From assembly GCA_004195025.1 (NCBI GenBank), contig SGBB01000003.1, positions 1 to 64,000 of the forward strand: 64,000 bases of DNA, written 5' to 3'. The notes beneath the pieces are model-generated. The model had not been told where the DNA came from. It was given only the letters and a program-made list of their open reading frames with translations, and ran no database searches. Both the position numbers and the translations under genes were made by a program. The stretch comes from Candidatus Acidulidesulfobacter diazotrophicus (GTDB lineage Bacteria; SZUA-79; Acidulodesulfobacterales; Acidulodesulfobacteraceae). Positions 14,362-33,002 of the stretch are shown in pieces; within the stretch, counting starts at the first letter, position 1; every line of letters starts with the position of its first letter.

Positions 14362-14437
14362 GGGCTGTTAGCTCAATTGGTAGAGCAACTGACTCTTAAT
14401 CAGTAGGTCGCCGGTTCGATCCCGGCACAGCCCACCA
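14362..14437 (+). tRNA. tRNA-Lys (CUU), CCA encoded; integration site
   Basis: Complete cloverleaf with acceptor GGGCTGT/ACAGCCC, anticodon stem ACTGA/TCAGT around CTCTTAA (anticodon CUU), T loop GGTTCGATCCC and an encoded CCA. Its last 46 bases plus one more are repeated exactly at 26091, so integration kept the gene whole. Confidence 0.95.
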
Positions 14438-14438
14438 C
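14392..14438 (+). repeat. attL: tRNA-Lys 3' half
   Basis: The 47 bases from ACTCTTAATCAGTAGGTCGC through the CCA and one further C are identical to 26091-26137. This marks the left crossover core of element 1. Confidence 0.85.
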
Positions 14439-15926: not shown

Positions 15927-16040
15927 TTATAAAATCGTCTGTTCCAGTTTAACCGAACTTTGTTCCAGTTTAACCGAACTTTGTTCCAGTTTAACCGAAG
16001 TTTGTTCCAGTTTAACCGAACCATTATTACTTTCCGTCAT
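15927..16040 (-). CDS. Possible 37-residue heptad-repeat peptide in the iteron tract
   Basis: An open frame starts MTESNN and continues as four heptads (GSVKLEQ, TSVKLEQ, SSVKLEQ, SSVKLEQ) plus TIL. It begins 14 bases after the stop of the RepC-like gene, so it could be translated by coupling. The frame exists because the DNA repeat is 21 bp, a multiple of three. Since third codon positions are as conserved as the others, DNA-level selection for iterons is the simpler reading. No separate ribosome site is visible. Confidence 0.3.
   Translation of the reverse strand: MTESNNGSVKLEQTSVKLEQSSVKLEQSSVKLEQTIL
15940..16022. repeat. Four 21-bp iterons, candidate oriV
   Basis: The unit TGTTCCAGTTTAACCGAACT (plus T) starts at 15940, 15961, 15982 and 16003 with only one or two changed bases. 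IncQ plasmids have similar 20-bp iterons that are bound by RepC at oriV. These repeats sit immediately beyond a RepC-like gene, so they are the likely initiator-binding site of element 1. A run of A/T lies next to them, as expected of an unwinding region. Confidence 0.7.
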
Positions 16041-16053
16041 ATATCAATTTTAT

Positions 16054-16760: not shown

Positions 16761-17924
16761 TTACAGCCCCCTTATATTTATTATATTTTCTTTTTGAAAA
16801 GCTTCTTTATCCTCAAAATTTTCTTTAAAAATTTGTATATTTTTTTCATTCCGGAAAAACGTTTTTATACCCCAATTGTCCTTTTCTATTTTAACTATTA
16901 TATTTTTATTGTCCGATTTATCGGCTTCGAGTGTATAATGCGCCCTTGCGGCGTCAACTAAGGCAGTCGCTCCCCTTGCGTCCCCTAAATTCGCAAATTT
17001 AGCATGATGATGAATAAGAATGATAGATTTATTATCCCGTTTTGCCCATTCCGTAAGTAAATCCATAAACTGCCTGGCTTCTCCGTTGTCGTTTTCATTT
17101 CCGCCGTAAAACGCTATGAGCGGATCCAAAATTATTATTTTGAAATCCCTGCAAGCGGCCTTAAATTCATAAAAAACCGGATTTATACTGATTTGATTAT
17201 CGGATTTTTTTAAAACCTGAAACGGGATCTGGTCGGTAAATCTTAAACAGTCATTATTTACCTGAATTTCCGTAAACTGCGATATTTTTTCGAGCCGATA
17301 TTTCGTTGTATAATCCGGGTCTTCAGATAGCCACGCAAGCGTAGGAATTTGCCTGTCCGCGGCTCGTAAGGCAATTTGCAAAGCTAAAGCCGACTTGCCG
17401 GACCCGCCCCTGGATGAAATCATCGTTACGGCTCCCGCCGGCAGCGGAATAAAATCATCGAGCAAAAAAGATGTCTTTTTTGCTGTTACGCTTGACGGCA
17501 ACTTAAAATCAAATTTTACGAGCGTGTTTTGTTCGAGCTTCAGGGATAATTCAAGAATTTTCGCTTTTATTTCCGTGAAATTGCTGTTTTTATTTGAATT
17601 AATAATATCAGCCAATCGCAAAATTAATAATCTTCGGAGAGAAGCATTTTTAATTTCTTGGACATATTGATTTATATTTAATAGTCCTTCCGGCAGCTGC
17701 ATTAATTCTAAAACATAATCTTGATATTCCGTGCCGGCAAAATTAGTTAAATCGATAGCTTTCCCTGCGGTGTGAAGTTCTTTTATCTTTGCAAAAATTT
17801 CCCTGTGCCGATAATCATAAAAATCTGAATGGGTTAAAGTATCAGCTTCTTCTACTAGTTTAGGGTCGATTATAATTCCTGCGAGCAATGCCTGTTCAGT
17901 TAAAATAATGTGATTTTCCGTCAT
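16761..17924 (-). CDS. RepA-type replicative helicase with DnaB N-domain
   Basis: 387 residues from ATG 17924, which has an AAGGTG site 8 bases upstream. Residues ~1-95 (ILTEQALLAGIIIDPKLVEE, then FYDYRHREIFAKI) match the DnaB N-terminal domain. The rest is a RecA-fold hexameric helicase: Walker A in MISSRGGSGKSALALQIALR, Walker B in IIILDPLIAFYGG, and ILIHHHAKF...ARGATALVDAAR for the later motifs. This is the RSF1010 RepA/AAA_25 type that unwinds at oriV. The gene starts ATGACGGAAA, the same box seen in the hairpin array at 24321. Confidence 0.75.
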   Translation of the reverse strand: MTENHIILTEQALLAGIIIDPKLVEEADTLTHSDFYDYRHREIFAKIKELHTAGKAIDLTNFAGTEYQDYVLELMQLPEGLLNINQYVQEIKNASLRRLLILRLADIINSNKNSNFTEIKAKILELSLKLEQNTLVKFDFKLPSSVTAKKTSFLLDDFIPLPAGAVTMISSRGGSGKSALALQIALRAADRQIPTLAWLSEDPDYTTKYRLEKISQFTEIQVNNDCLRFTDQIPFQVLKKSDNQISINPVFYEFKAACRDFKIIILDPLIAFYGGNENDNGEARQFMDLLTEWAKRDNKSIILIHHHAKFANLGDARGATALVDAARAHYTLEADKSDNKNIIVKIEKDNWGIKTFFRNEKNIQIFKENFEDKEAFQKENIINIRGL

Positions 17925-20540: not shown

Positions 20541-20828
20541 TTATTTATTATTTTGTGTTTTTTTATCTAAGTTTTTTTTTATATTTTTTGTAAATATTAA
20601 TTCGTCTGCGGGGGCTGTTTTCCAGGCTTTTATTGCTTTTTTTGTCAATTTTATTAATACAAAAATAGCAATAATGTCAATAATAAACATATAAAATTCA
20701 GCTCCGCCAGCGGATTTGCGGCTTATAAGTAAACTTAAAATAATTTGGCCGAAACCGAGAAAAACCAGCAAAAAAACAGTCTCCAGACTGAAAATAAAAT
20801 TATGCATAAAATTAATTAGTTTAATCAT
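20541..20828 (-). CDS. Two-span membrane protein beside the VirB6-like gene
   Basis: 95 residues with membrane helices at about 10-33 (FIFSLETVFLLVFLGFGQII) and 45-62 (FYMFIIDIIAIFVLIKL) and a basic C-terminal tail. The start overlaps the stop of the VirB6/TrbL-like gene (TAATG-type junction), so the two are co-translated and probably act together in the inner membrane. No named family recognised. Confidence 0.55.
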   Translation of the reverse strand: MIKLINFMHNFIFSLETVFLLVFLGFGQIILSLLISRKSAGGAEFYMFIIDIIAIFVLIKLTKKAIKAWKTAPADELIFTKNIKKNLDKKTQNNK

Positions 20829-21958
20829 TATTTGCCTCCCTTAGCCCTTTCCACTACCGCCGTTTTTGCCGCTCCGCCCATTTTAACCCCGCCGGTGCTT
20901 ATGTTTTTTACGCTTGTAATAATAGGTGCAATGACGGCGGTTACGCTCATATTAGGCATACCGCTTACAATTTCACCTGCTATGCCCGGTATTTTTGTAA
21001 CTAACCAACCAAAAACTAGCAGAATAAAAGTGTATATAAGCTCGTTAATAATGGCCTGAATTGAGTAATTAGCCTTCACATTAATTGCCTGAATATAATT
21101 CAAAAGTGTATTGTTCATAAATAAGCTGAACATTTTCAAAACAACAAAAATTAAAAAATATGAAATAGCCGAAGTCAGCAAGAATTTAAGCCAGCCGTTC
21201 CAAAGAAACTCCAAGGGTTTAAAAATCATAAAAGGCACGAATATATAACCCGTAACTAACGCAATTACAATGTAAGCTTCTACGACAAATATTGTTCCTG
21301 CAACAAGAAAAAACGCTATAAGCAAAATAATAATACCTATAAAATATAAAATCACAGAAGGCAAAATGGAAAAAAAGTTAAAAATGCTGCCGGTAGAAAC
21401 TAAAGCGAACTGGGACGATAAAATATTATAAAAATCATAAAAAATATTCTGGAATAGGCTCATCGGATCCGTCACACCGGCAACGGTTTGTCCGAGCGAA
21501 TAAAACATAGATACAGTGCCGGTAAAAAAAAGATTATACGCTTCCAGCATTCCACGAACAAAAATAATAAAAAATATAAATATCATAAATTCTTTTATAC
21601 CTTTGTCGCCGAATAAAAGATTTTGAATTGACCATAAAACCATTGCTATTACGGCAAGATATGCGAATAACTGTCCGGAAATATTTGTTAAACTTGCGGC
21701 TTCCTGTGGCCCGGCCTTAAGCAGATTATGCTCAATTGAATTTAGTTTATTAAATGCAATATTTCCGCCGGTGACGTTATTCACAGTCGGCGCGGGCGCG
21801 GGAGCTGCTCCCGTTGGAGTTCCCCCCAGCGCATTAAGCGCCGCTACCTGTGCCGGTGTGGCGCCTAAAGTTCCCGTGCCGTTTCCGAGAGCATAAACTT
21901 TGCTTACAGATAAAGTCAAAGCTAAAGATATAAATAATATTAGCGATAATTTTTTCAT
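20828..21958 (-). CDS. VirB6/TrbL-like conjugation membrane protein
   Basis: 376 residues. A cleavable signal peptide (KKLSLILFISLALTLSVSKV, then YA) is followed by a periplasmic Ala/Pro-rich segment and five to six membrane helices between ~95 and 320. LFAYLAVIAMVLWSIQNLLF and FIFFIIFVRGMLEAYNLFF match the TrbL/VirB6 pattern. These proteins form part of the inner-membrane channel of type IV secretion systems. AAGAGG precedes the start. No VirB4, VirB8-10 or VirD4 gene is nearby, so it may plug into a helper's machinery or have a different job. Confidence 0.65.
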   Translation of the reverse strand: MKKLSLILFISLALTLSVSKVYALGNGTGTLGATPAQVAALNALGGTPTGAAPAPAPTVNNVTGGNIAFNKLNSIEHNLLKAGPQEAASLTNISGQLFAYLAVIAMVLWSIQNLLFGDKGIKEFMIFIFFIIFVRGMLEAYNLFFTGTVSMFYSLGQTVAGVTDPMSLFQNIFYDFYNILSSQFALVSTGSIFNFFSILPSVILYFIGIIILLIAFFLVAGTIFVVEAYIVIALVTGYIFVPFMIFKPLEFLWNGWLKFLLTSAISYFLIFVVLKMFSLFMNNTLLNYIQAINVKANYSIQAIINELIYTFILLVFGWLVTKIPGIAGEIVSGMPNMSVTAVIAPIITSVKNISTGGVKMGGAAKTAVVERAKGGK

Positions 21959-21976
21959 AATTTAATACCTCTTAAT

Positions 21977-22252
21977 TTAATATGTTATTAATTTCGGCGG
22001 CTTCGGTTGTGGAAGATATGCCGTAGCGGCCGCCGAGCAATTATTTAAGCGAGCTGCCGATGAAGCGCTGTCAGGCTCTTGATTTTGCCAGCCAGGCAAA
22101 TTCTTATTGCACCATTTATAAACTTTTTCGGCAGATTTTTTATGCTTCAAATAATAATAAACGGAGTGGTCTTGTAATGTTTTTTTAGCACACCCCGAAA
22201 TACCGAAAACGAAGAACCCCGCAATTAATACTAAAAATAATTTCTTTTTCAT
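21977..22252 (-). CDS. EexN-like entry-exclusion lipoprotein
   Basis: 91 residues. The signal peptide ends in the lipobox GISGC, so Cys21 should be lipidated. The mature part has the spaced pattern VYYYLKHKKSAEKVYKWCNK...LNNCSAAATAYL, which resembles EexN lipoproteins (V-x-x-Y-x-x-H, then Cys-x-N and Cys-x-A-A). These proteins stop redundant transfer between like cells. The place between the VirB6- and VirB5-like genes fits. The resemblance is short, so moderate confidence. Confidence 0.55.
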   Translation of the reverse strand: MKKKLFLVLIAGFFVFGISGCAKKTLQDHSVYYYLKHKKSAEKVYKWCNKNLPGWQNQEPDSASSAARLNNCSAAATAYLPQPKPPKLITY

Positions 22253-22274
22253 ATTACCCCTCTTTTTTTCTTAA

Positions 22275-22412
22275 TTAAAAATGGACATTAGATAAATTTT
22301 GGATCGGTAAATACTGTGAAAGCCAAGCAAGAATAATCCCCGCCGAGACCACGGCAATTTTAAAAATTTTATTGTCTTCGTATTTTTTATAAAATTCTTT
22401 GATTTTTTGCAT
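22275..22412 (-). CDS. Small one-helix membrane protein
   Basis: 45 residues: a charged start (MQKIKEFYKKYEDNKIFK), one helix (IAVVSAGIILAWLSQYLP) and a short tail. AAGGAG lies 8 bases before the ATG. It sits in the transfer gene cluster between the VirB5- and EexN-like genes, where short inner-membrane proteins are common. Function unknown. Confidence 0.5.
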   Translation of the reverse strand: MQKIKEFYKKYEDNKIFKIAVVSAGIILAWLSQYLPIQNLSNVHF

Positions 22413-22436
22413 TTTTTTTCTCCTTTTTTAATTTTT

Positions 22437-23285
22437 TTATGGGTTAATTCCAAAATTAGTAACTGGCGGATAAGTCCCAAACGGATTGCCGGAACTATCA
22501 TAAATTTTTAACGCCGGCGGCGAGTAAGTTTGCGAAGCCGTAGAAACCGCCGAATCTTGCTGACCTGCCTGCATAGCCGCAAGTTTCGCCCGTTCCGCTT
22601 CAAGTTTATTTAATTGATTTACTTCTTCGGTTAGTGTCACTACCGCCTGTCCTGTTGCCTGTTCCGCAGAAACAGCGGAGTTAGCTTTTCCGATATTAGA
22701 ACCAAGCTGTTCTACTAAATGCTGTTGATTTTGCGAATTATTTAAAATCCCCTGTGCGTATCCGGCAGTCTGTCCAGACTGCGTGTCGGCGGTTTGATAT
22801 TGATTTTGCATATTTTGGTTTTGCTGGGGTAAATTAGAATTATAAAGACTATTACTCCCATAAGTATTCTGATAATTCTGTAAAAACCCCTGCATAGCCG
22901 GATTGCCGTTTTCCATGCTGATAATATTAGTCATACTTGCTTGCTCCGCCGTAAGCGAGTTTTTAAGCCCCTGCAGTTCGTTAGCGGGCATCATAACAGT
23001 GCCTTCAAGATTATTAACCGCTCCCATTAATCCTGAAGCTTCCTGTTGCATATTTTGAACCTGATTCATCAGCTGCTGTCCTTGCCTCACGTATTTTAAA
23101 GCTGATAATTCTACTTGTATTTTAGATTCCGCCGCCTGAATGGCGGTATTGGCGGCGGTAATTTCTTTAATTACCGCCTGAATCCCCGCCGTCACGGGAT
23201 CAAACGTAATTATCCCTTGCGCCGAGACCGTAACCGGCATTAAAAATAAAAACATAAAAAATAATAGGAATGTTAGTTTTTTCAT
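22437..23285 (-). CDS. VirB5/TrbJ-like secreted conjugation protein
   Basis: 282 residues. A signal peptide (KKLTFLLFFMFLFLMPVTVS, then AQG) leads into a long helical, Gln/Ala-rich body with AAESKIQVELSALKYVRQGQ and VQNMQQEASGLMGAVNNLEG, the style of TrbJ/VirB5 minor pilus-tip proteins. The C-terminus is Pro/Gly-rich. It is the first gene of the minus-strand transfer cluster, facing away from the repressor gene at 23526, and its promoter lies in the 240-base divergent gap. An AGGAGC site precedes the start. Confidence 0.65.
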   Translation of the reverse strand: MKKLTFLLFFMFLFLMPVTVSAQGIITFDPVTAGIQAVIKEITAANTAIQAAESKIQVELSALKYVRQGQQLMNQVQNMQQEASGLMGAVNNLEGTVMMPANELQGLKNSLTAEQASMTNIISMENGNPAMQGFLQNYQNTYGSNSLYNSNLPQQNQNMQNQYQTADTQSGQTAGYAQGILNNSQNQQHLVEQLGSNIGKANSAVSAEQATGQAVVTLTEEVNQLNKLEAERAKLAAMQAGQQDSAVSTASQTYSPPALKIYDSSGNPFGTYPPVTNFGINP

Positions 23286-23410
23286 TTTTTAAGCTCCTAA
23301 ATGTAAAATTCTATATTGTGTTAATATATTCTACATAATTAATTATATAATTAAAAATATAATTGTCAAGTGATTTTTTCTACTTTGTAGAAATATTTTA
23401 TTTTTATTTT

Positions 23411-23476
23411 AAATCTTTTGCTCAAGACAGCAACGTTCCGTTGCAAAAATCGCATTTGCGATTAACCTGCGGTGCT
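23411..23476. repeat. Left arm of a 65-bp inverted repeat
   Basis: From ATCTTTTGCTCAAGACAGC to AACCTGCGGTGCT. Its inverse recurs at 24590-24654 with changes only at the tip of an internal hairpin. It contains two small palindromes, GCAACGTTCCGTTGC and ATCGCATTTGCGAT. It lies in the divergent promoter gap between the VirB5-like and repressor genes. Confidence 0.85.
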
Positions 23477-23525
23477 AAAATATTTGTGTTAATTTTTTTT
23501 ATAATGTGTTATAAAATTAAATATC

Positions 23526-24317
23526 ATGGCTAAATATAAACCTCTTTTAACGAAATCTGAAATATCTTTTATCGATAGATTAAGAAAAATAAGGATTGAG
23601 AAACATATAACACAGGAAGAACTTGCAAAAAAAGCGGGAGTTCCGAGGGTTTTTATTGCCGAACTTGAAAAATACTATAAAAAACCTAAAAAACAATATG
23701 TCTCTAAAATAGCGGCCGCGCTGGAATATCCGGCTGATAAACTGGATTATTTTTTTAAAAGCGCAAAATTCGATAAATTCTTTTTTGAAGAAAGAATAAC
23801 GCCGGTTCCGTTAAGCAAGGATATTATAAAAACCGTGGAAGAGTTTGAACGGTTAAGCTTGGAATCTTACGTTTTTTTACCTTATAGGCTAATTGATGTT
23901 ATTTCTTATCAACTTCAAGGTAATTTCTACGCCTATATTATGCCCGATGAGTCAATGCAGCCCTTAATCAGAAAAAACGATATTGCGTTAATTAAATTTA
24001 TAGATATTGATTTTAAGAATTTAGACGAGAGAATAAACGATATTGCCGTAGCCGTTGTTAATATGAAAACCGGCCAGGAAATCATTAGAAATTATAGCAG
24101 TAATGTTTTATATAAATTTGTAGATTCCGGACGGATCCACGAAAATATGCCGGACATCTCTCTGAACCCGATAAATCCTGAATTTGGTTCAATTATTATA
24201 GAAGAAGCCGCTAAACATCGTAGCTGGAAAATAAAAGGCCTCGTTATTGCCGTTATTAGCGAAAAAATACTAATCGATTATACCGACGGGGTCATTTTAA
24301 AAACATTTGATATGTAA
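23526..24317 (+). CDS. XRE-S24 repressor of element 1
   Basis: 263 residues. An N-terminal Cro/C1-type helix-turn-helix (ITQEELAKKAGVPRVFIAEL, residues 29-48) is joined to a LexA/CI-type peptidase S24 fold. The serine is at 143 in PDESMQPLIRKND. The position of the catalytic lysine appears to hold Arg188 (QEIIRNYSS), so self-cleavage may be impaired. It is the only left-end gene reading rightward and faces the transfer genes. It is the likely master switch of the element, releasing transfer and excision on a cellular signal. No clear ribosome site precedes the ATG, so translation may be weak or leaderless. Confidence 0.75.
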   Translation: MAKYKPLLTKSEISFIDRLRKIRIEKHITQEELAKKAGVPRVFIAELEKYYKKPKKQYVSKIAAALEYPADKLDYFFKSAKFDKFFFEERITPVPLSKDIIKTVEEFERLSLESYVFLPYRLIDVISYQLQGNFYAYIMPDESMQPLIRKNDIALIKFIDIDFKNLDERINDIAVAVVNMKTGQEIIRNYSSNVLYKFVDSGRIHENMPDISLNPINPEFGSIIIEEAAKHRSWKIKGLVIAVISEKILIDYTDGVILKTFDM

Positions 24318-24320
24318 TAA

Positions 24321-24600
24321 CTATGACGGAAAGTCAGGGCTACAATGTAGCCGTTACTCTGCGTCATATAGATATAACTTAAAACGAAGCCCCGCCTGAA
24401 TTAGACGAAAAAACTATGACGGAAAGTATTGTCAACACTGTTGACAATACGGAGAATCATATAGACACACCCAAAAACGAAGAACCGTAAGCCTTTAACA
24501 GCATTTTATATGACGGAAAGTAACGTCTACATTGTAGACGTTATTCTAAATCATACTTTTTACCCTGAAAACCGGAAACCGTAAACCAAAGCACCGCAGG
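24321..24600 (+). repeat. Three tandem 93-94-bp hairpin repeats with ATGACGGAAAGT boxes
   Basis: Units start at ATGs 24323, 24416 and 24510. Each has TATGACGGAAAGT, exactly 29 bases, then TCATA. The 29 bases form a hairpin with a 3-base loop: GGCTAC-AAT-GTAGCC, ATTGTCAAC-ACT-GTTGACAAT and AACGTCTAC-ATT-GTAGACGTT. Stem sequences differ between units while pairing is kept, and the outer TATGA/TCATA also pair. A spacer with AAAACGAAG or AAAACCGG follows. Each ATG opens a short frame (MTES..., 19, 24 and 24 residues). Not a recognised family. Confidence 0.85.
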
Positions 24601-24654
24601 TTAATCGCTAAAAGCGATTTTTGCAACGGAACGTTGCTGTCTTGAGCAAAAGAT
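24590..24654. repeat. Right arm of the 65-bp inverted repeat
   Basis: The inverse of 23411-23476: AGCACCGCAGGTTAATCGC through TTGAGCAAAAGAT. The two arms differ only at the hairpin tip (CGCAAATGCG against CGCTAAAAGCG), where both sides changed together so pairing is kept. A T-rich run follows, so it could also end transcription of the repressor and hairpin array. Confidence 0.85.
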
Positions 24655-24751
24655 TATTTTTTCATTTTTGTTTTTTTACTCCCTAATGTAAAAATAAGAA
24701 TTTTAAAAAAATTTCCGCCGATAAAGAATAGATGTGGTAAAATAAATAATT

Positions 24752-25087
24752 ATGGAAAATAAAGAATATATACTAAATACTGCGAAACAAATAATTACTG
24801 AAGAAATAGAAAAAGCCGGCTATAAAGTAGAAGCTATTTATCTTTTCGGTTCCAGGGCAAGAGGAGACTATAAAGAATATAGCGATTGGGATTTTTTTGT
24901 GGTTACAAATAGAGATCTAATAAAAAATGATTTAATAAACGTTTTGCGATTTATCCGTGAAAAAATAGTAGAAAATATAGATATATCAACCGACATAATA
25001 ATAAAATCTAAAAATCTTTATGAACATCAGCAGATAGGAACAGGTTTTCTATCTTATTATGTAAATAAAGAAGGAGTAAGTTTATGA
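24752..25087 (+). CDS. MNT-type minimal nucleotidyltransferase (antitoxin)
   Basis: 111 residues with the polymerase-beta fold motif: Gly33-Ser34 in FGSRARGDY and the two aspartates Asp45 and Asp47 in SDWDFFVV. This is the MntA type, which in known pairs AMPylates its HEPN partner to silence it. The stop overlaps the HEPN start by four bases (ATGA). No strong ribosome site is seen before the ATG. The gene lies near the right end of element 1 and probably stabilises it. Confidence 0.8.
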   Translation: MENKEYILNTAKQIITEEIEKAGYKVEAIYLFGSRARGDYKEYSDWDFFVVTNRDLIKNDLINVLRFIREKIVENIDISTDIIIKSKNLYEHQQIGTGFLSYYVNKEGVSL

Positions 25088-25560
25088 AGAAAGATGCGCA
25101 GATACTAATACAAAAAGCCGAAAAAGATTTAAATATCGCAAAAAGTTTGTCTATTGAAAACCATGACTTTTTAGAAGGAATTTGTTTTCATTGTCAACAA
25201 TCAGTTGAAAAATATTTAAAAGCATTCTTAGTTTGCAATAATCAAGAAATTAATTTTACTCACGATATTACAGCAGTATTGTCAGATTGCCATAAAATAG
25301 ATATTGATTTTAATAAACTTAAAGAATTAAATATAAGTAATTTAACAAATTACGCCGTCATCGTAAGATATGACGACATTATAGAACCGACTTTAGATGA
25401 CGCCAAAGAAGCAATATTAATCGCAGAAAAGGTTAAATTATTTGTAATAGAAAAGATAAATCTGCTTGAGCAAAAACAGACTCTATACGAGGAAGACGCC
25501 TTTACTAAAGACTTAAATAACAGGCTAAATAAAGGCAAAGGCGGTCCTAAGCTGGGGTAA
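25084..25560 (+). CDS. HEPN-domain toxin with extra C-terminal tail
   Basis: 158 residues. The HEPN fold is recognisable from AEKDLNIAKSL, CFHCQQSVEKYLKAFLV, the FTHDI loop and VIVRYDD (residues ~11-100). HEPN toxins are usually RNases held in check by an MNT partner. After the domain there is an added tail, EEDAFTKDLNNRLNKGKGG, shared with the C-terminus of the relaxase at 18157. That tail is not part of the usual HEPN protein. It is translated by coupling to the MNT gene. Confidence 0.75.
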   Translation: MKKDAQILIQKAEKDLNIAKSLSIENHDFLEGICFHCQQSVEKYLKAFLVCNNQEINFTHDITAVLSDCHKIDIDFNKLKELNISNLTNYAVIVRYDDIIEPTLDDAKEAILIAEKVKLFVIEKINLLEQKQTLYEEDAFTKDLNNRLNKGKGGPKLG

Positions 25561-26090: not shown

Positions 26091-26137
26091 ACTCTTAATC
26101 AGTAGGTCGCCGGTTCGATCCCGGCACAGCCCACCAC
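26091..26137 (+). repeat. attR of element 1 / left junction of element 2
   Basis: 47 bases identical to the 3' end of tRNA-Lys(CUU) (14392-14438), with no tRNA 5' half before it. It is followed by AAAACGCAGTAAATAAGCC, which recurs after the third copy (34043) and after tRNA-Lys(UUU), and marks the integrase-proximal end of the element 2/3 type. Confidence 0.85.
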
Positions 26138-28187: not shown

Positions 28188-28919
28188 TTATTGGTTGTTT
28201 TTTATAAGTTCTTTCATTCTGTAGCTGTTACCTGTTATTTTAAATACTATAGAGTGATGTATTACTCTATCTAATATAGCTGAAGCTAAAACAGCGTCTC
28301 CGAATATATTAGCCCATTCTTCAAAAGGTCTGTTTGTCGTAATTATAATAGAACCCGTTTCATATCTTCTTCTTATTATTTCAAAGAACTCGTCAACCGA
28401 TTGTATTTTTTTAAATCCCACTTCGTCTATGATTAAAAGATCCGCATTTAAAAGTTCTTTCAATATATTGACGTAGGTTCCGTCTCCTTTAGACTGTAGT
28501 AATCTGTCTAACAGCTCGGTCGTATGAAGCATTAAAACTTTATATCCTTGTTTTAACGCTTCTATTCCTAAAGCATTGGCAAGATGAGTTTTGCCTACTC
28601 CAGGATTTCCCATAAATATAATATTCTTTTTTTCTTCTAAATACCTGCATGAGGCAACATCTAAAATCTGTTTTTTATTAAGTTCAGCCTGATAGTTAAA
28701 ATCATAGGTATCTAAGGTTTTAGAATAATCTAATTTAGATTTCGTAAATCTTATTTTATAAGAATTTGATTGTCTGTTTACAAGTTCGTCCTCTATTAAA
28801 AGAGTTAAAAAATCTATATAGCTTAACTGGGATTCTACCGCAAATTTATTTCTTCCTTCAAGCACCTTGACTATTCCCGATAATTTAAGTTTTTTAAGTT
28901 TAAGTTCAAGCTCTTTCAT
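28188..28919 (-). CDS. istB: IS21 helper ATPase
   Basis: 243 residues from ATG 28919, which has GGAGG 6 bases upstream. It is an AAA+ ATPase of the IstB/DnaC type: Walker A in IIFMGNPGVGKTHLANALGI, Walker B in ADLLIIDEVGFK, sensor region in IIITTNRPFEEWANIFGD, and the C-terminal ILDRVIHHSIVFKITGNSYR. IstB remodels target DNA and recruits the transposase. The start overlaps the end of istA. The copy at 36887 is nearly identical over its retained length. Confidence 0.88.
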   Translation of the reverse strand: MKELELKLKKLKLSGIVKVLEGRNKFAVESQLSYIDFLTLLIEDELVNRQSNSYKIRFTKSKLDYSKTLDTYDFNYQAELNKKQILDVASCRYLEEKKNIIFMGNPGVGKTHLANALGIEALKQGYKVLMLHTTELLDRLLQSKGDGTYVNILKELLNADLLIIDEVGFKKIQSVDEFFEIIRRRYETGSIIITTNRPFEEWANIFGDAVLASAILDRVIHHSIVFKITGNSYRMKELIKNNQ

Positions 28920-30345
28920 TAGCGCCTCCGGTAAGTCTGTCGTATATTGCAAGATCAGTGAAGTAGCCGCTTCCTGTAGCTTCCGCAGTAAAATCTTTTT
29001 TATCGTAGAGTTTATCTTCTAATATCTTTTTTACGGAGAGATAATTAAAAGTAGAATAAAGATTAGCTCTTTTTAAAGAAGCGTTTATTTCTTCATTTGA
29101 ATAATATTTGCGGAAAGAAATAATACCGGCTATAATCCTGTGCCAGTAATGAGGTCTCAGTTTTTTAATATTATCAAAAAATATTAAAGCGTCCTGTCCT
29201 ATGGATTGCAAACTTTCATAATATTTATCCGTATTTTTTCTAAATACCGGAACATGGTCTTCTAACGTAATAAAATCTCCTTTATCTTGAGATATTGAAT
29301 GAACCGCGATTTGATTTAGTTTTTCATCGTATATTTTTAAAATATAACCGTTTGATTTTATTGTCACAAATTCGCCTTTATATTTGTAAGGCAAAGAATA
29401 GAAGTTATATCTATAGCATATATGACCGTAATTATTAATCTGCCTTCTTTCTACCGTATATATCTCAAAGCGGCTAACAGGGAGTAATGATAAATTTTCT
29501 TTTTTAAACTGTTCAAAAGGTACTTTTCTTGTAGTGCCGTGTATTCTCTGATTAATCTTGTTAGTCCATATTTTAAGTTCTTTGGTGGCTTCATAGTAAT
29601 CTTTTGTTTCAAGTCCTTTTATGAAATTGTTTTTCACGTATTTAACGCCGGACTCCACCTTGCCTTTATCGGTAGGTTGTTTAACCCTGCGCGTAACAGG
29701 CATACTGTTATAATGCATAAGCATTGCGGCGTATTCTTCTTGTATTATCGGCTCATAAAAACTTGCTTTTAATACAGCCGATTTAAGATTGTCTATTTTA
29801 ACTGTTTTAGGTGTTCCGTTAAAGAATTCAAAAGCATGAATATGGCAATTTATAAAAGTAGGCACGCTCTGATCTAAAACTAATTCAAAATAGCCGTATC
29901 TTGAAAAGGATAACACCATGCAGAAAATCCATACTTTTACTTTTTTGCCGTTTTTTAAAAAATAGCCTCCGTAACCGAAATCAACCTGCGCTTCTTCACC
30001 CGGAGCGCTTATTAAAGGCATGAAAGGGGCATCGGGCCCTTTTATGCCTTTAACATATCTTTTAACCGCAGAGTAGCTTATTGCAAGATTATATTTTTCA
30101 GTAAGCTTTTGATGGATTAATACGGAATTTAATTCATCTTCAAGATAAGACTTTATGTCATTTTTATAATTATCAAGAATACTTTTTCTTTCTATAGAAG
30201 GCGGAGTAATTTCTCCTTCTGTTATGCTTTTTTTAATCTTTCTTACTGTTTTACGATCTATATCAAATGTTCTTGCAATTTCTGAAATACTTTTGCCGTT
30301 TTCCAATAATGTTTTAACTGAATAATACATAGCGATCCCCTTCAA
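28906..30345 (-). CDS. istA: IS21 transposase
   Basis: 479 residues, usual IstA length. An N-terminal helix-turn-helix (GKSISEIARTFDIDRKTVRK) is followed by a DDE integrase core with EEAQVDFGYGGYF (first Asp), TVKIDNLKSAV (second Asp) and TDKGKVESGVKYVKN (Glu). The proposed start is TTG at 30345, with AGGAGG 7 bases upstream; an ATG five codons later is also possible. Confidence 0.88.
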   Translation of the reverse strand: MKGIAMYYSVKTLLENGKSISEIARTFDIDRKTVRKIKKSITEGEITPPSIERKSILDNYKNDIKSYLEDELNSVLIHQKLTEKYNLAISYSAVKRYVKGIKGPDAPFMPLISAPGEEAQVDFGYGGYFLKNGKKVKVWIFCMVLSFSRYGYFELVLDQSVPTFINCHIHAFEFFNGTPKTVKIDNLKSAVLKASFYEPIIQEEYAAMLMHYNSMPVTRRVKQPTDKGKVESGVKYVKNNFIKGLETKDYYEATKELKIWTNKINQRIHGTTRKVPFEQFKKENLSLLPVSRFEIYTVERRQINNYGHICYRYNFYSLPYKYKGEFVTIKSNGYILKIYDEKLNQIAVHSISQDKGDFITLEDHVPVFRKNTDKYYESLQSIGQDALIFFDNIKKLRPHYWHRIIAGIISFRKYYSNEEINASLKRANLYSTFNYLSVKKILEDKLYDKKDFTAEATGSGYFTDLAIYDRLTGGANERA

Positions 30346-30482
30346 ATTTGTACCTCCTATTATTTTATTATTTGTATTTTAATTTTATTATTTATATTTA
30401 AAATACAAATTTAATAGGAGTTATTTTACACTAAAATACTGGGGAATTTAAACGCTCTTTCCCTGAGGAAATTATATTAACA

Positions 30483-31016
30483 TTAACAATCAGAAATTAT
30501 AGATTGAATATAAATCTTGGAGGAAAGCATGAGGCAATATTTTTACTAAATATTTGCTATAAATATTTCTGCAAAATGCTGAATATTGACATAAATAATA
30601 ATTTTAATAATATTCTTATGAAAATAGTATCAGAAAATGCAGAGACTTTTAATGCAGAAGTTCTAAGTGAATATGAAAAATATCAAAACGCGATCAAAGA
30701 ATTTGCCGGGGGGTCGGGGCGGTTTTTTAATAAAATTCAGGAAAAAAAGGACGGAGATAGTTATCGTAAGCCTAATAATGGAATCATAGGACAAATCGAA
30801 ACTGAATATGCTAATGATGATGATTTTGTTTTATATTTTTATACAAACAAAGCGCTTGAAATGCTATGCAAAGAATATAAACTTGAACAAAAACGACTTT
30901 TAGATATTTTAAAACAGAAAGACGTGTTAATATCGGGCGATAAAAAAGGACAATATACAATTCAGAAAAAAATTGACGGGAATCCATTGCGGTGTTATTG
31001 CTTTAAATTATCTTAA
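30483..31016 (+). pseudogene. C-terminal fragment of a DUF927/primase-type protein
   Basis: An open frame runs from the IS21 end (TLTIRNYRLNINLGGKHEAI) to a stop at 31016, with no start of its own. The last ~80 residues (GQIETEYANDDDFVLYFYTN, then KRLLDILKQKDVLISGDKKG) resemble the winged-helix-like end of DUF927 helicase/primase-type proteins of mobile elements. The N-terminal body was probably deleted together with the integrase end when the insertion sequences arrived. Confidence 0.45.
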
Positions 31017-31396
31017 ATAATTCGGTAGCAATAACTTTACTACTTTTTAAATATCTCCAAACCCTTATATTTTATGCTATTGCGGCGGGTATATCATCTG
31101 GTAGTAATGATTTAAAAATATATAGTATGTATTTAAGAAAAAAAATATTAGTATAAAAAAAATAAAAAACCTTATAAAGCCATTATGAAATATTACTACT
31201 TTACTACCGATAGCTTTCAAACACAGTAATACGTGAGGATTAATACTGTTGTAATAAAAATATATATATTTTATAAAATATACTTATATATTAGATAAAT
31301 ACTGAATTTGCGGCGGTAGTAATAACAGTAGCAATAATTCACAATATTACTACCGGTATAAAAATCGGGGCCATAAAAAGACAGGTTTAATAGTCA
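31017..31396. other. Intergenic region with scattered TTACTACT repeats
   Basis: 380 bases. The motifs TTACTACT and GTAGTAAT recur in both orientations (31040, 31190, 31318 and 31350), often next to GCAATAA. They may be decayed iterons of element 2 or chance in A/T-rich DNA. No gene is seen. Confidence 0.35.
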
Positions 31397-32389
31397 TCAC
31401 GACCGGCGGGCATTCATTTCATCTTCTAATGCTTTAAGTCTCGTTAAAATCTCTGTGAATGCCAGTTCATTGCCAAAAATCATTTTTCCCATAGCTTTAT
31501 AATCTTTTTCCAGTTCTTTAATCCTGTTATTCTGCGGCAACAACTTCATGCTTCCTGGTTTTGCTTCATTATATTTTGCCCAACTTGACGGATAAAATTT
31601 ATTTTTAAAATCCACGACTTCTTTTAAAAGACCTAAATTTTTAAGGGCTTTATTTTTTGCCGATGATTTTGCCATAACGGCTAAATCATAATAGTGCCTT
31701 GAATATCTTGACGGTAATGATTTATCAGTCGGCCTATTTGCTTCCTGGTGTAGAATTGTTGCTTTCTCCCAAAATGTTCGTTCGGCCATAATTGCCGTCA
31801 CATTACATGCTTTTTTTTCAAAAATATCAGGAAACTCTTCTGCAGCATAAGATTTTATCGGATAAGATTCTGACGGCGACCATTGTGCCAGAGGACCAAT
31901 TTCGAGCAAAATTTGAGGCCTTATATAAGCATCCGCGAACGAGGCCGGATAAGCTATATTAATCTTTAATTTATCTTCTTCATTAATTTCGCATTTACAA
32001 AAATATGAACTGGTAATTTCTGAGATAATTGGCAATAATATATCGTTGATATAGGCTTTTACATCTTCGTTTAATTTTTCATTAAATTTAGTTTGTTTTC
32101 TTTTCGAGTCTCTTTCATTATATGGATCCTCTTTGGTTAACTCCCTCCAATCAAGTATTAAATCTATATCTTCAGAAAATCTCTCGATAAGATTAAAAAC
32201 CTTGGACAGGCTGGTACCGCCCTTTAATATTAGTATTTTATTTAACCTTTTGTCTGAGAATATTTTATAAAGTATAAAAACTACCCAAAAGTCCTTTTCC
32301 GCGATAGTTTCCGTCATGCCCCTATTCGCTGCTGTTTCACGGAAAAGTTCCTGTCTGTCCTTGCCTGATAATAAAGCTACTTTATCCAT
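31397..32389 (-). CDS. abiEii: AbiEii-type nucleotidyltransferase toxin
   Basis: 330 residues. The DUF1814/AbiEii signature is clear: LILKGGTSLSK (Gly57-Gly58-Thr59-Ser60) and IERFSEDIDLIL with Asp74 and Asp76 as metal-binding residues. AbiEii toxins transfer nucleotides to tRNA or other targets and are bacteriostatic; with AbiEi they act in phage abortive infection. The start overlaps the end of the upstream antitoxin-like gene by 8 bases. Located in the right half of element 2 as likely defence or maintenance cargo. Confidence 0.85.
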   Translation of the reverse strand: MDKVALLSGKDRQELFRETAANRGMTETIAEKDFWVVFILYKIFSDKRLNKILILKGGTSLSKVFNLIERFSEDIDLILDWRELTKEDPYNERDSKRKQTKFNEKLNEDVKAYINDILLPIISEITSSYFCKCEINEEDKLKINIAYPASFADAYIRPQILLEIGPLAQWSPSESYPIKSYAAEEFPDIFEKKACNVTAIMAERTFWEKATILHQEANRPTDKSLPSRYSRHYYDLAVMAKSSAKNKALKNLGLLKEVVDFKNKFYPSSWAKYNEAKPGSMKLLPQNNRIKELEKDYKAMGKMIFGNELAFTEILTRLKALEDEMNARRS

Positions 32390-33002
32390 TACTTAACTCT
32401 TTTTTGCAAATTTGCTTTATGGTTTCATATATCCAGGTATCCGAAGTTTTTGTATCTTCTAGAATATTACTACATGTCTTGCTATCTATCCGTTCTTTTA
32501 TTTTCGCTTTGACATCGTCTGTGATATTTTCTTTTCCTAACGACTTTAGCGCTTGCACGATTAGCGAACTTTCTTTGTATCTAAAGCCTATATTCTTAAG
32601 GGCAGAACTTTTGAATTCCAAAGAAATATTGTTTAATATCCGGTAAGTTTTTTTAGGCCCGTTGCTTAAATATATATATTTTCCCGGCACCTGGGTAGAT
32701 ATCCCCAGAATATTAAGCGCGGTATCCCCGCTGGCTTCTATCTTCAGGTTAAATTTTCTTGAAATTGCATCTGCTACTTGCCGTATATCTGGGCTTAATT
32801 CTTTTTTTAAGAAAGGGCTATATTCCGGATAATCATATATACCACGGGTCAGGCGACGTATTTTACCTTTTTGAGCTAAGCTGGATAATGCTTTCTCTAT
32901 ATTATTTATAGGAAATTCTTTTATAAAATCGCTTGATGAAAACGCATATCCTTTACCCCGACGATATAGCTTATTTAATATCTTATCTTCTATAGATTTC
33001 AT
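32382..33002 (-). CDS. AbiEi-type antitoxin/transcription factor (DUF6088-like)
   Basis: 206 residues. The N-terminal ~60 residues are a winged helix-turn-helix (DKILNKLYRRGKGYAFSSSD, then KIRRLTRGIYDYPEYSPFLK). The rest fits the DUF6088 antitoxin body with GDTALNILGISTQVPGKYIY. These proteins repress the operon through inverted repeats and neutralise AbiEii without direct contact in known type IV systems. The palindromic 10-bp repeats at 33109 lie upstream and are candidate operators. Confidence 0.75.
   Translation of the reverse strand: MKSIEDKILNKLYRRGKGYAFSSSDFIKEFPINNIEKALSSLAQKGKIRRLTRGIYDYPEYSPFLKKELSPDIRQVADAISRKFNLKIEASGDTALNILGISTQVPGKYIYLSNGPKKTYRILNNISLEFKSSALKNIGFRYKESSLIVQALKSLGKENITDDVKAKIKERIDSKTCSNILEDTKTSDTWIYETIKQICKKELSNG

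Follow-up and report, generated by a model that had tools for sequence, protein, structure and literature searches.

The window analysed here, a 64-kb stretch of DNA from Candidatus Acidulidesulfobacter diazotrophicus (genome G000 in the following), carries a mobile element of 11.7 kb that is integrated at tRNA-Lys(CTT) and has 47-bp direct repeats at both ends (attL, in the tRNA gene, 14392-14438, + strand; attR, 26091-26137, + strand). The element codes for an integrase, a replication protein, a DnaB-N/AAA helicase, an XRE repressor (23526-24317, +) with an S24-like C-terminus below threshold and a weak TrbA match in the helix-turn-helix, and a toxin-antitoxin-type cargo (24752-25560, +) made up of an MNT nucleotidyltransferase (24752-25087) and a HEPN protein (25084-25560). 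A relaxase-like protein was assigned from its HxH motif and has no Pfam match. Transfer functions are represented by an EexN lipoprotein, TrbL/VirB6 and a likely VirB5-like protein (22437-23285, without family match). All open reading frames on the element are too short for VirB4 or VirD4; judging from its gene content, the element would therefore need a helper and is probably mobilizable rather than self-transmissible. The combination of a likely VirB5 with EexN and VirB6/TrbL, without VirB4/VirD4 (20828-23285, - strand), is reminiscent of SGI1-type elements, which replace parts of the helper's transfer apparatus. An EexN-like homologue is also encoded on the conjugative plasmid of genome G029.

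Four iterons of 21 bp (15940-16020) adjoin the replication gene. They can be read as an SVKLEQ(T/S) peptide, and the sister element in G006 has two iteron copies with identical internal bases altered in both (TTTAA to AATAC), another case of concerted change (see below).

The repressor gene and the array behind it are together bracketed by inverted copies of an element of about 65 bp with two hairpins, the left one at 23412-23476 (-) and the right one at 24590-24655 (+), directly 3' of the array and before the MNT/HEPN cargo. Across its occurrences, this inverted-repeat element comprises about 65-85 nt (AGCACCGCAGGTTAA, two hairpins with changing stems, usually a GAA loop, and TTGAGCA). It forms inverted pairs in sister elements as well (G006, G021 and contig C47 of G006, written G006:C47) and precedes differing toxin-antitoxin or nuclease cargo in G002 and G012:C1. 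The stem of the second hairpin is the same in both copies within G000 and within G006:C69, and different between these two elements. It could be oriT-like, a terminator or leader, or the end of a cassette. The leader following the right copy (24656-24751) is conserved, but different genes come after it: MNT/HEPN in our element, a DUF6036-type pair in G006 and a restriction-like gene in G012:C1. Elsewhere in the window we found a DUF3800-IX RNA (Rfam RF02968, 36112-36182, +, 59.5 bits) and an IS21-type istA/istB pair together with an AbiEii/DUF6088 toxin-antitoxin pair (28188-33002).

The repeat array

The array consists of three tandem units of 93-94 bp (about 24322-24589, spacings of 93 and 94), in each of which TATGACGGAAAGT and TCATA enclose exactly 29 nt (24322-24368, 24415-24461 and 24509-24555), just as the first-pass annotation had described them. 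Throughout the 2.46-Mb genome this pattern has three matches, all in the array, and the reversed pattern, used as a control, has none. Unit 1 (24322-24414, +, 93 bp) comprises the box at 24322-24334, the dyad GGCTACAATGTAGCC at 24338-24352 and TCATA at 24364-24368. The dyad of unit 2 (24415-24508, +, 94 bp) is the strongest, spanning 25 bp at 24426-24450 (GTATTGTCAACACTGTTGACAATAC, 12-bp arms, 1-nt centre), and that of unit 3 (24509-24589, +) lies at 24521-24543 (TAACGTCTACATTGTAGACGTTA, 11-bp arms). All three are perfect or near-perfect. Two dyads in the array have arms of 9 bp or more and a loop no longer than 5 nt, whereas shuffles of the region contain 0.02 of this kind per 600 bp. The array region also folds far better than shuffled sequences on both strands (z of -5.7 and -6.4).

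The first-pass annotation had taken the changing stems as a sign that structure rather than sequence is selected. One half of this statement holds, since pairing is kept amid sequence change in four plasmid genes (see below); the other does not, since the stems of all three units share the core C(T/A)ACANTGT(T/A)G, with two types of half-site among them (CTACA and CAACA). Because of this shared core, a DNA operator has to be weighed against an RNA hairpin.

Each unit contains the short MTES frame that had been reported, and the similar NH...P endings noted for two of the units are present as well. These frames (MTESQGYNVAVTLRHIDIT, MTESIVNTVDNTENHIDTPKNEEP and MTESNVYIVDVILNHTFYPENRKP, each followed by a stop codon within the unit) encode 19, 24 and 24 amino acids. 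Of the two places where the box was said to recur at start codons, the one at 16029-16040 (-) is an exact match, whereas that at the start of the repA-like gene (17913-17924, -) has one mismatch. Adjoining the iterons, 17 nt are identical to unit 3 (TATATGACGGAAAGTAA, 16027-16043, -); in the sister element G012:C6 this position is occupied by a unit-like copy ending in TCATA.

Two further suggestions for the array are not supported by the sequence. The GTTRRRY or RYYYAAC core of cassette (attC) sites is absent from both strands of 24301-24600, and as regards an oriV, the iterons adjoin the replication gene and are unlike the array.

A dyad at the transfer promoter

The genes for VirB5, EexN and VirB6 are preceded by a consensus promoter (TTGACA-16-TATAAT, 12/12; 23342-23369, -). 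A bare dyad (TTCTACTTTGTAGAA, 23378-23392) lies 8 bp upstream of its -35 box and is the sole match to CWACNNNGTWG outside the array in the 64-kb window. Dyads with the same core are located 7-8 bp upstream of the TTGACA box in G000, G012:C3 and G021; the promoter-proximal dyad is missing from those sister elements whose repressors are of other types (G006:C69 and G012:C6). The distance between array and transfer promoter amounts to 0.95-1.15 kb. A LexA (SOS) box was considered for the dyads and rejected: the lexA promoters carry GTTCGCCTTTTGTTCG and, like the recA promoter, are devoid of the dyad. GTTCGCCTTTTGTTCG is a direct repeat common to the regions upstream of lexA in G006, G012 and G000 and may represent the LexA box of this phylum.

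Occurrence in other genomes

A search with a covariance model built on the 47-bp unit, whose E-values stem from a shortened calibration, revealed about 16 copies among 30 genomes that the labels of the metagenome-assembled genomes (MAGs) assign to the same phylum; the copies are few, and two MAG contigs end inside arrays. Eight of the 30 genomes have units at E<=1e-4. No unit was found at E<=0.01 in 69 genomes of other families; the negative control in other phyla was run with stricter filters and is weak proof of absence. All copies sit on mobile elements and none is dispersed through the genomes; nearly all contain the core ACANTGT, and hairpin-less units occur in G006 and G004:C10. Named relatives of the element are present in FK_Sedi_B_Bin.167, a MAG labelled Deltaproteobacteria, and SKS5.bin53, labelled as bacterium only.

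In the sister element of G006 the array retains 87% DNA identity, whereas the repressors of the two elements share just 30%. G012 harbours two sister elements with the array, one behind the same repressor type and one behind a third type. The array therefore does not track the repressor, being kept behind three differing types.

A DNA search of PLSDB plasmids and phages returned no match, and the Rfam search of the array gave no match above gathering score and nothing relevant at a permissive threshold. Exact pattern matches in IMG/VR (two, inside coding genes) and in G092 lack the dyad and were dismissed as chance.

Copies inside ParB2 and Rep_3 genes

On conjugative plasmids that encode a relaxase (G004, G029, G001 and, diverged, G013), the unit lies inside a gene for a ParB protein with ParB_N and HTH_ParB domains, here termed ParB2. 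It was further found in the C-terminal tail of Rep_3 initiators, with two units in G021 and one in G006:C47, and the tails of these two proteins differ by exactly 31 residues, i.e. one unit. No ParB2 was seen near the units of these Rep_3 elements. All copies inside long open reading frames (7/7) use the same open frame, in which the box is read as MTE(N/S). It is therefore probable that the MTES frames of the array represent a version of this coding-compatible unit that now contains stops, and were not designed as leader peptides. No Pfam repeat matched in the ParB2 or Rep_3 carriers.

Between the ParB2 genes of G029 and G001, 35 of the 36 identical residues within the unit have identical codons, compared to 193 of 283 elsewhere (p=6e-5). 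Among plasmid proteins, matches to ParB2 are confined to the ParB domain of general ParB proteins, and no relatives were found in IMG/VR. At E<=1e-20, ParB2 is absent from the genome carrying the array and from G012.

Kept pairing and concerted changes

The dyads at the orthologous place of the four ParB2 genes read ATAACAGCTACACTGTAGCTGTTAT (G004), TAAGGTAAACAGTGTTTACCTTA (G029), AAGGTAAACACTGTTTACCTT (G001) and AACAAGAACAGTGTTCTTGTT (G013). Each is perfect over about 21-25 bp, and yet there are three different sequences among them, and the encoded residues differ too. The central base of dyads flips between C and G among relatives.

In the same four plasmids, a bare dyad without the flanks of the unit overlaps or just follows the stop codon of the relaxase gene: CTACACTGTAG / GTCTACACTGTAGAC in G004, GTAAACAGTGTTTA in G029, GTAAACACTGTTTA in G001 and GTGAACGGCGTTCA in G013. 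Every one of them matches the core of a ParB2 dyad on its own plasmid; in G013 this counterpart is another ParB2 dyad, which lies one unit further upstream. That two separate sites have changed in concert suggests a single protein that recognises both. The HTH of ParB2 is alike in G029 and G001 and differs among G004, G013 and the G029/G001 pair, and the sites group likewise. This correlation could also be plain divergence. In addition, the close relationship of G029 and G001 keeps the number of independent events small.

Covariation in homologues, asked for at the outset, exceeds that of all shuffles in a set of 11 copies, a control that does not amount to a probability. In these first 11 copies, which were chosen by similarity, every variable stem pair changes on both sides or breaks. 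The ten element contigs covered contain 41 dyads whose outer arms measure 6 bp or more, against about 6.6 expected; this count includes some with unpaired central bases and a few shared among plasmids by descent.

Discussion

Several known systems resemble the unit in part. Rickettsia palindromic elements (RPEs) are palindromic repeats of ~150 bp with many copies in unrelated chromosomal genes (PMC10969869). They have in common with our unit the in-frame location within protein genes (here ParB2 and Rep_3 tails) and one preferred open frame. In contrast, the unit described here measures 93 bp, has few copies, is tandem and confined to mobile elements, and is accompanied by matching bare dyads; instead of a high dispersed chromosomal copy number there are three copies in this genome, in one array. 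PARCEL repeats occur in tandem in protein-coding sequence, show dyad symmetry at the DNA level and are linked to mobile elements (PMC2996958), features shared by our unit. However, PARCEL is an amphipathic repeat of 25 residues in membrane-targeted proteins, whereas here we find a polar repeat of 31 residues in ParB/Rep tails, and noncoding copies too.

Another likeness is to the KorB operators (OB) of IncP-1 plasmids. The dyads on ParB2 plasmids are odd-centred with C or G, one is placed just upstream of a -35 box with others dispersed, and the plasmids bearing them encode a ParB-family protein (ParB_N, HTH_ParB) as a candidate binder. The sequence is a different one: the dyads read NNNACANTGTNNN with the core ACANTGT, not TTTAGC(C/G)GCTAAA. 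The putative operator is, moreover, embedded in a longer perfect palindrome and in a coding repeat, and varies by plasmid, unlike OB. The KorB operator TTTAGC(C/G)GCTAAA, with its odd C/G centre, is located just upstream of the -35 box and also acts from >1 kb (PMC2680271; PMC11790492). SGI1, finally, is a mobilizable element with parS-like sites tied to the parB region of its conjugative helper family (PMC10954446). The element studied here likewise bears copies of a sequence linked to the parB region of a likely helper; here, the relation to this helper is suggested by gene content.

We tentatively favour, without considering it certain enough to call it probable, that a dimeric plasmid regulator, ParB2 being the foremost candidate, binds the dyads and acts on the element in trans. 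According to this proposal, a coding-compatible palindromic unit of 93 bp would have spread among the mobilizable elements and conjugative plasmids of one phylum, and a ParB/KorB-like protein from a helper plasmid would act at the transfer promoter of the element, with the dyad at 23378 as the proximal site and the array, about 1 kb off, as a distal cluster. As ParB2 is absent from the genome of the array and from G012, a transient helper would have to supply the binder. KorB acts together with KorA or TrbA, and the element's own XRE repressor possibly takes part alongside ParB2. The sites could also give the element a share in the partition machinery of the helper. That these dyads are bound, by which protein, and with what effect on the element is what we infer from their sequence and position. 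Several observations fit the proposal poorly: the Rep_3 elements of G021 and G006:C47 have units with no ParB2 seen close by, the two half-site types in the array are odd for a single protein, and each arm of the unit dyads pairs over 10-12 bp, more than a 13-15 bp operator would require. A more elaborate form, to which we give rather little credence, holds that the element captured the unit of a helper parB in tandem, so that the embedded dyads mimic the sites of the helper's ParB/KorB-like protein; the presence of the helper would be sensed at the VirB5-EexN-VirB6 promoter, its partition system shared or jammed, and the unit would double as a coding repeat in other proteins.

The main rival, which we regard as unlikely though clearly worth consideration, is a passive, selfish in-frame palindromic repeat, similar to RPEs, that spreads between mobile elements, its open forward frame making it tolerable in disordered tails and linkers. 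Here the arms would be kept identical by template-switch (quasipalindrome) correction instead of selection; template switching is able to create and keep perfect stems (PMC8794818), and a central base that flips between C and G is expected of such events in inverted repeats. The single open frame of all seven long-ORF copies and the Rep_3 tails with one versus two 31-residue units agree with passive spread, as does the varying copy number, and the hairpin-less units of G006 and G004:C10 show that the dyad can be lost. On the other hand, a selfish repeat with just about 16 copies, all on mobile elements instead of dispersed, would be unusual, and the core ACANTGT has been retained in nearly all of them. 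It is mainly the flankless dyads at the relaxase stop codons, matching the unit dyad of their own plasmid, that lead us to prefer a recognising protein; neither spreading nor arm correction predicts them.

The remaining explanations appear less attractive. Hairpins in the 3' UTR of the repressor mRNA, serving stability, processing or as a small RNA, would account for the folding on both strands and for the covariation, and the unit in the G021 repA gene keeps its pairing via two G-U pairs. Any perfect dyad, however, folds well on either strand, no one-sided stem change is kept by G-U in the 11-sequence set, and the unit also resides inside coding genes and has no Rfam match, which makes an RNA function improbable. 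(In view of the two G-U pairs in G021, we dropped the scarcity of G-U as proof of DNA over RNA.) We think equally little of auxiliary operators for the XRE repressor of the element, with looping from 23385 to the array as known for phage CI. All three elements that have this repressor type (G000, G012:C3 and G021) possess the promoter dyad, which is lacking in G006:C69 and G012:C6, and units 1 and 3 share its core CTACNNNGTAG; yet the array, unlike the promoter dyad, is kept with the 30%-identical repressor of G006 and the other type of G012:C6, and the TTGTGTTAAT repeats at 23316-23325 and 23484-23493 offer an alternative candidate operator. Apart from looping, the proximal dyad could be the repressor's own operator, because it is missing in sisters with other repressors. 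Control of repA by an antisense or decoy RNA or by leader peptides, as proposed in the first-pass annotation, is hardly credible any more. Identities of 16-17 nt do link the array boxes with the repA start and the 16040 site. Nevertheless, the match is not maintained in G012, where ATGACAGAAAATCAC stands at the repA start but ATGACGCAGAGT in the array box, and at 16040 G006 has ATA in place of the ATG of the supposed peptide, despite having kept ACGGAAAGTAATAATGG. The array ATGs lack ribosome binding sites (Shine-Dalgarno pairing of +0.1 to +1.2 kcal/mol versus -4.3 for repA), an argument that is weak alone since the repressor's own start is also without pairing.

In the ParB2 genes, a palindrome stays perfect at an orthologous place of a protein gene while its sequence and the encoded residues change, with a second site changing in step. 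If a plasmid regulator is behind this, the system would provide a testable route to the joint switching of operator and regulator specificity on plasmids, and to how mobilizable elements sense or parasitise their helpers. If the passive repeat should turn out to be true, in-frame palindromic elements would extend beyond Rickettsia and PARCEL to a new phylum and to the backbone genes of mobile elements.
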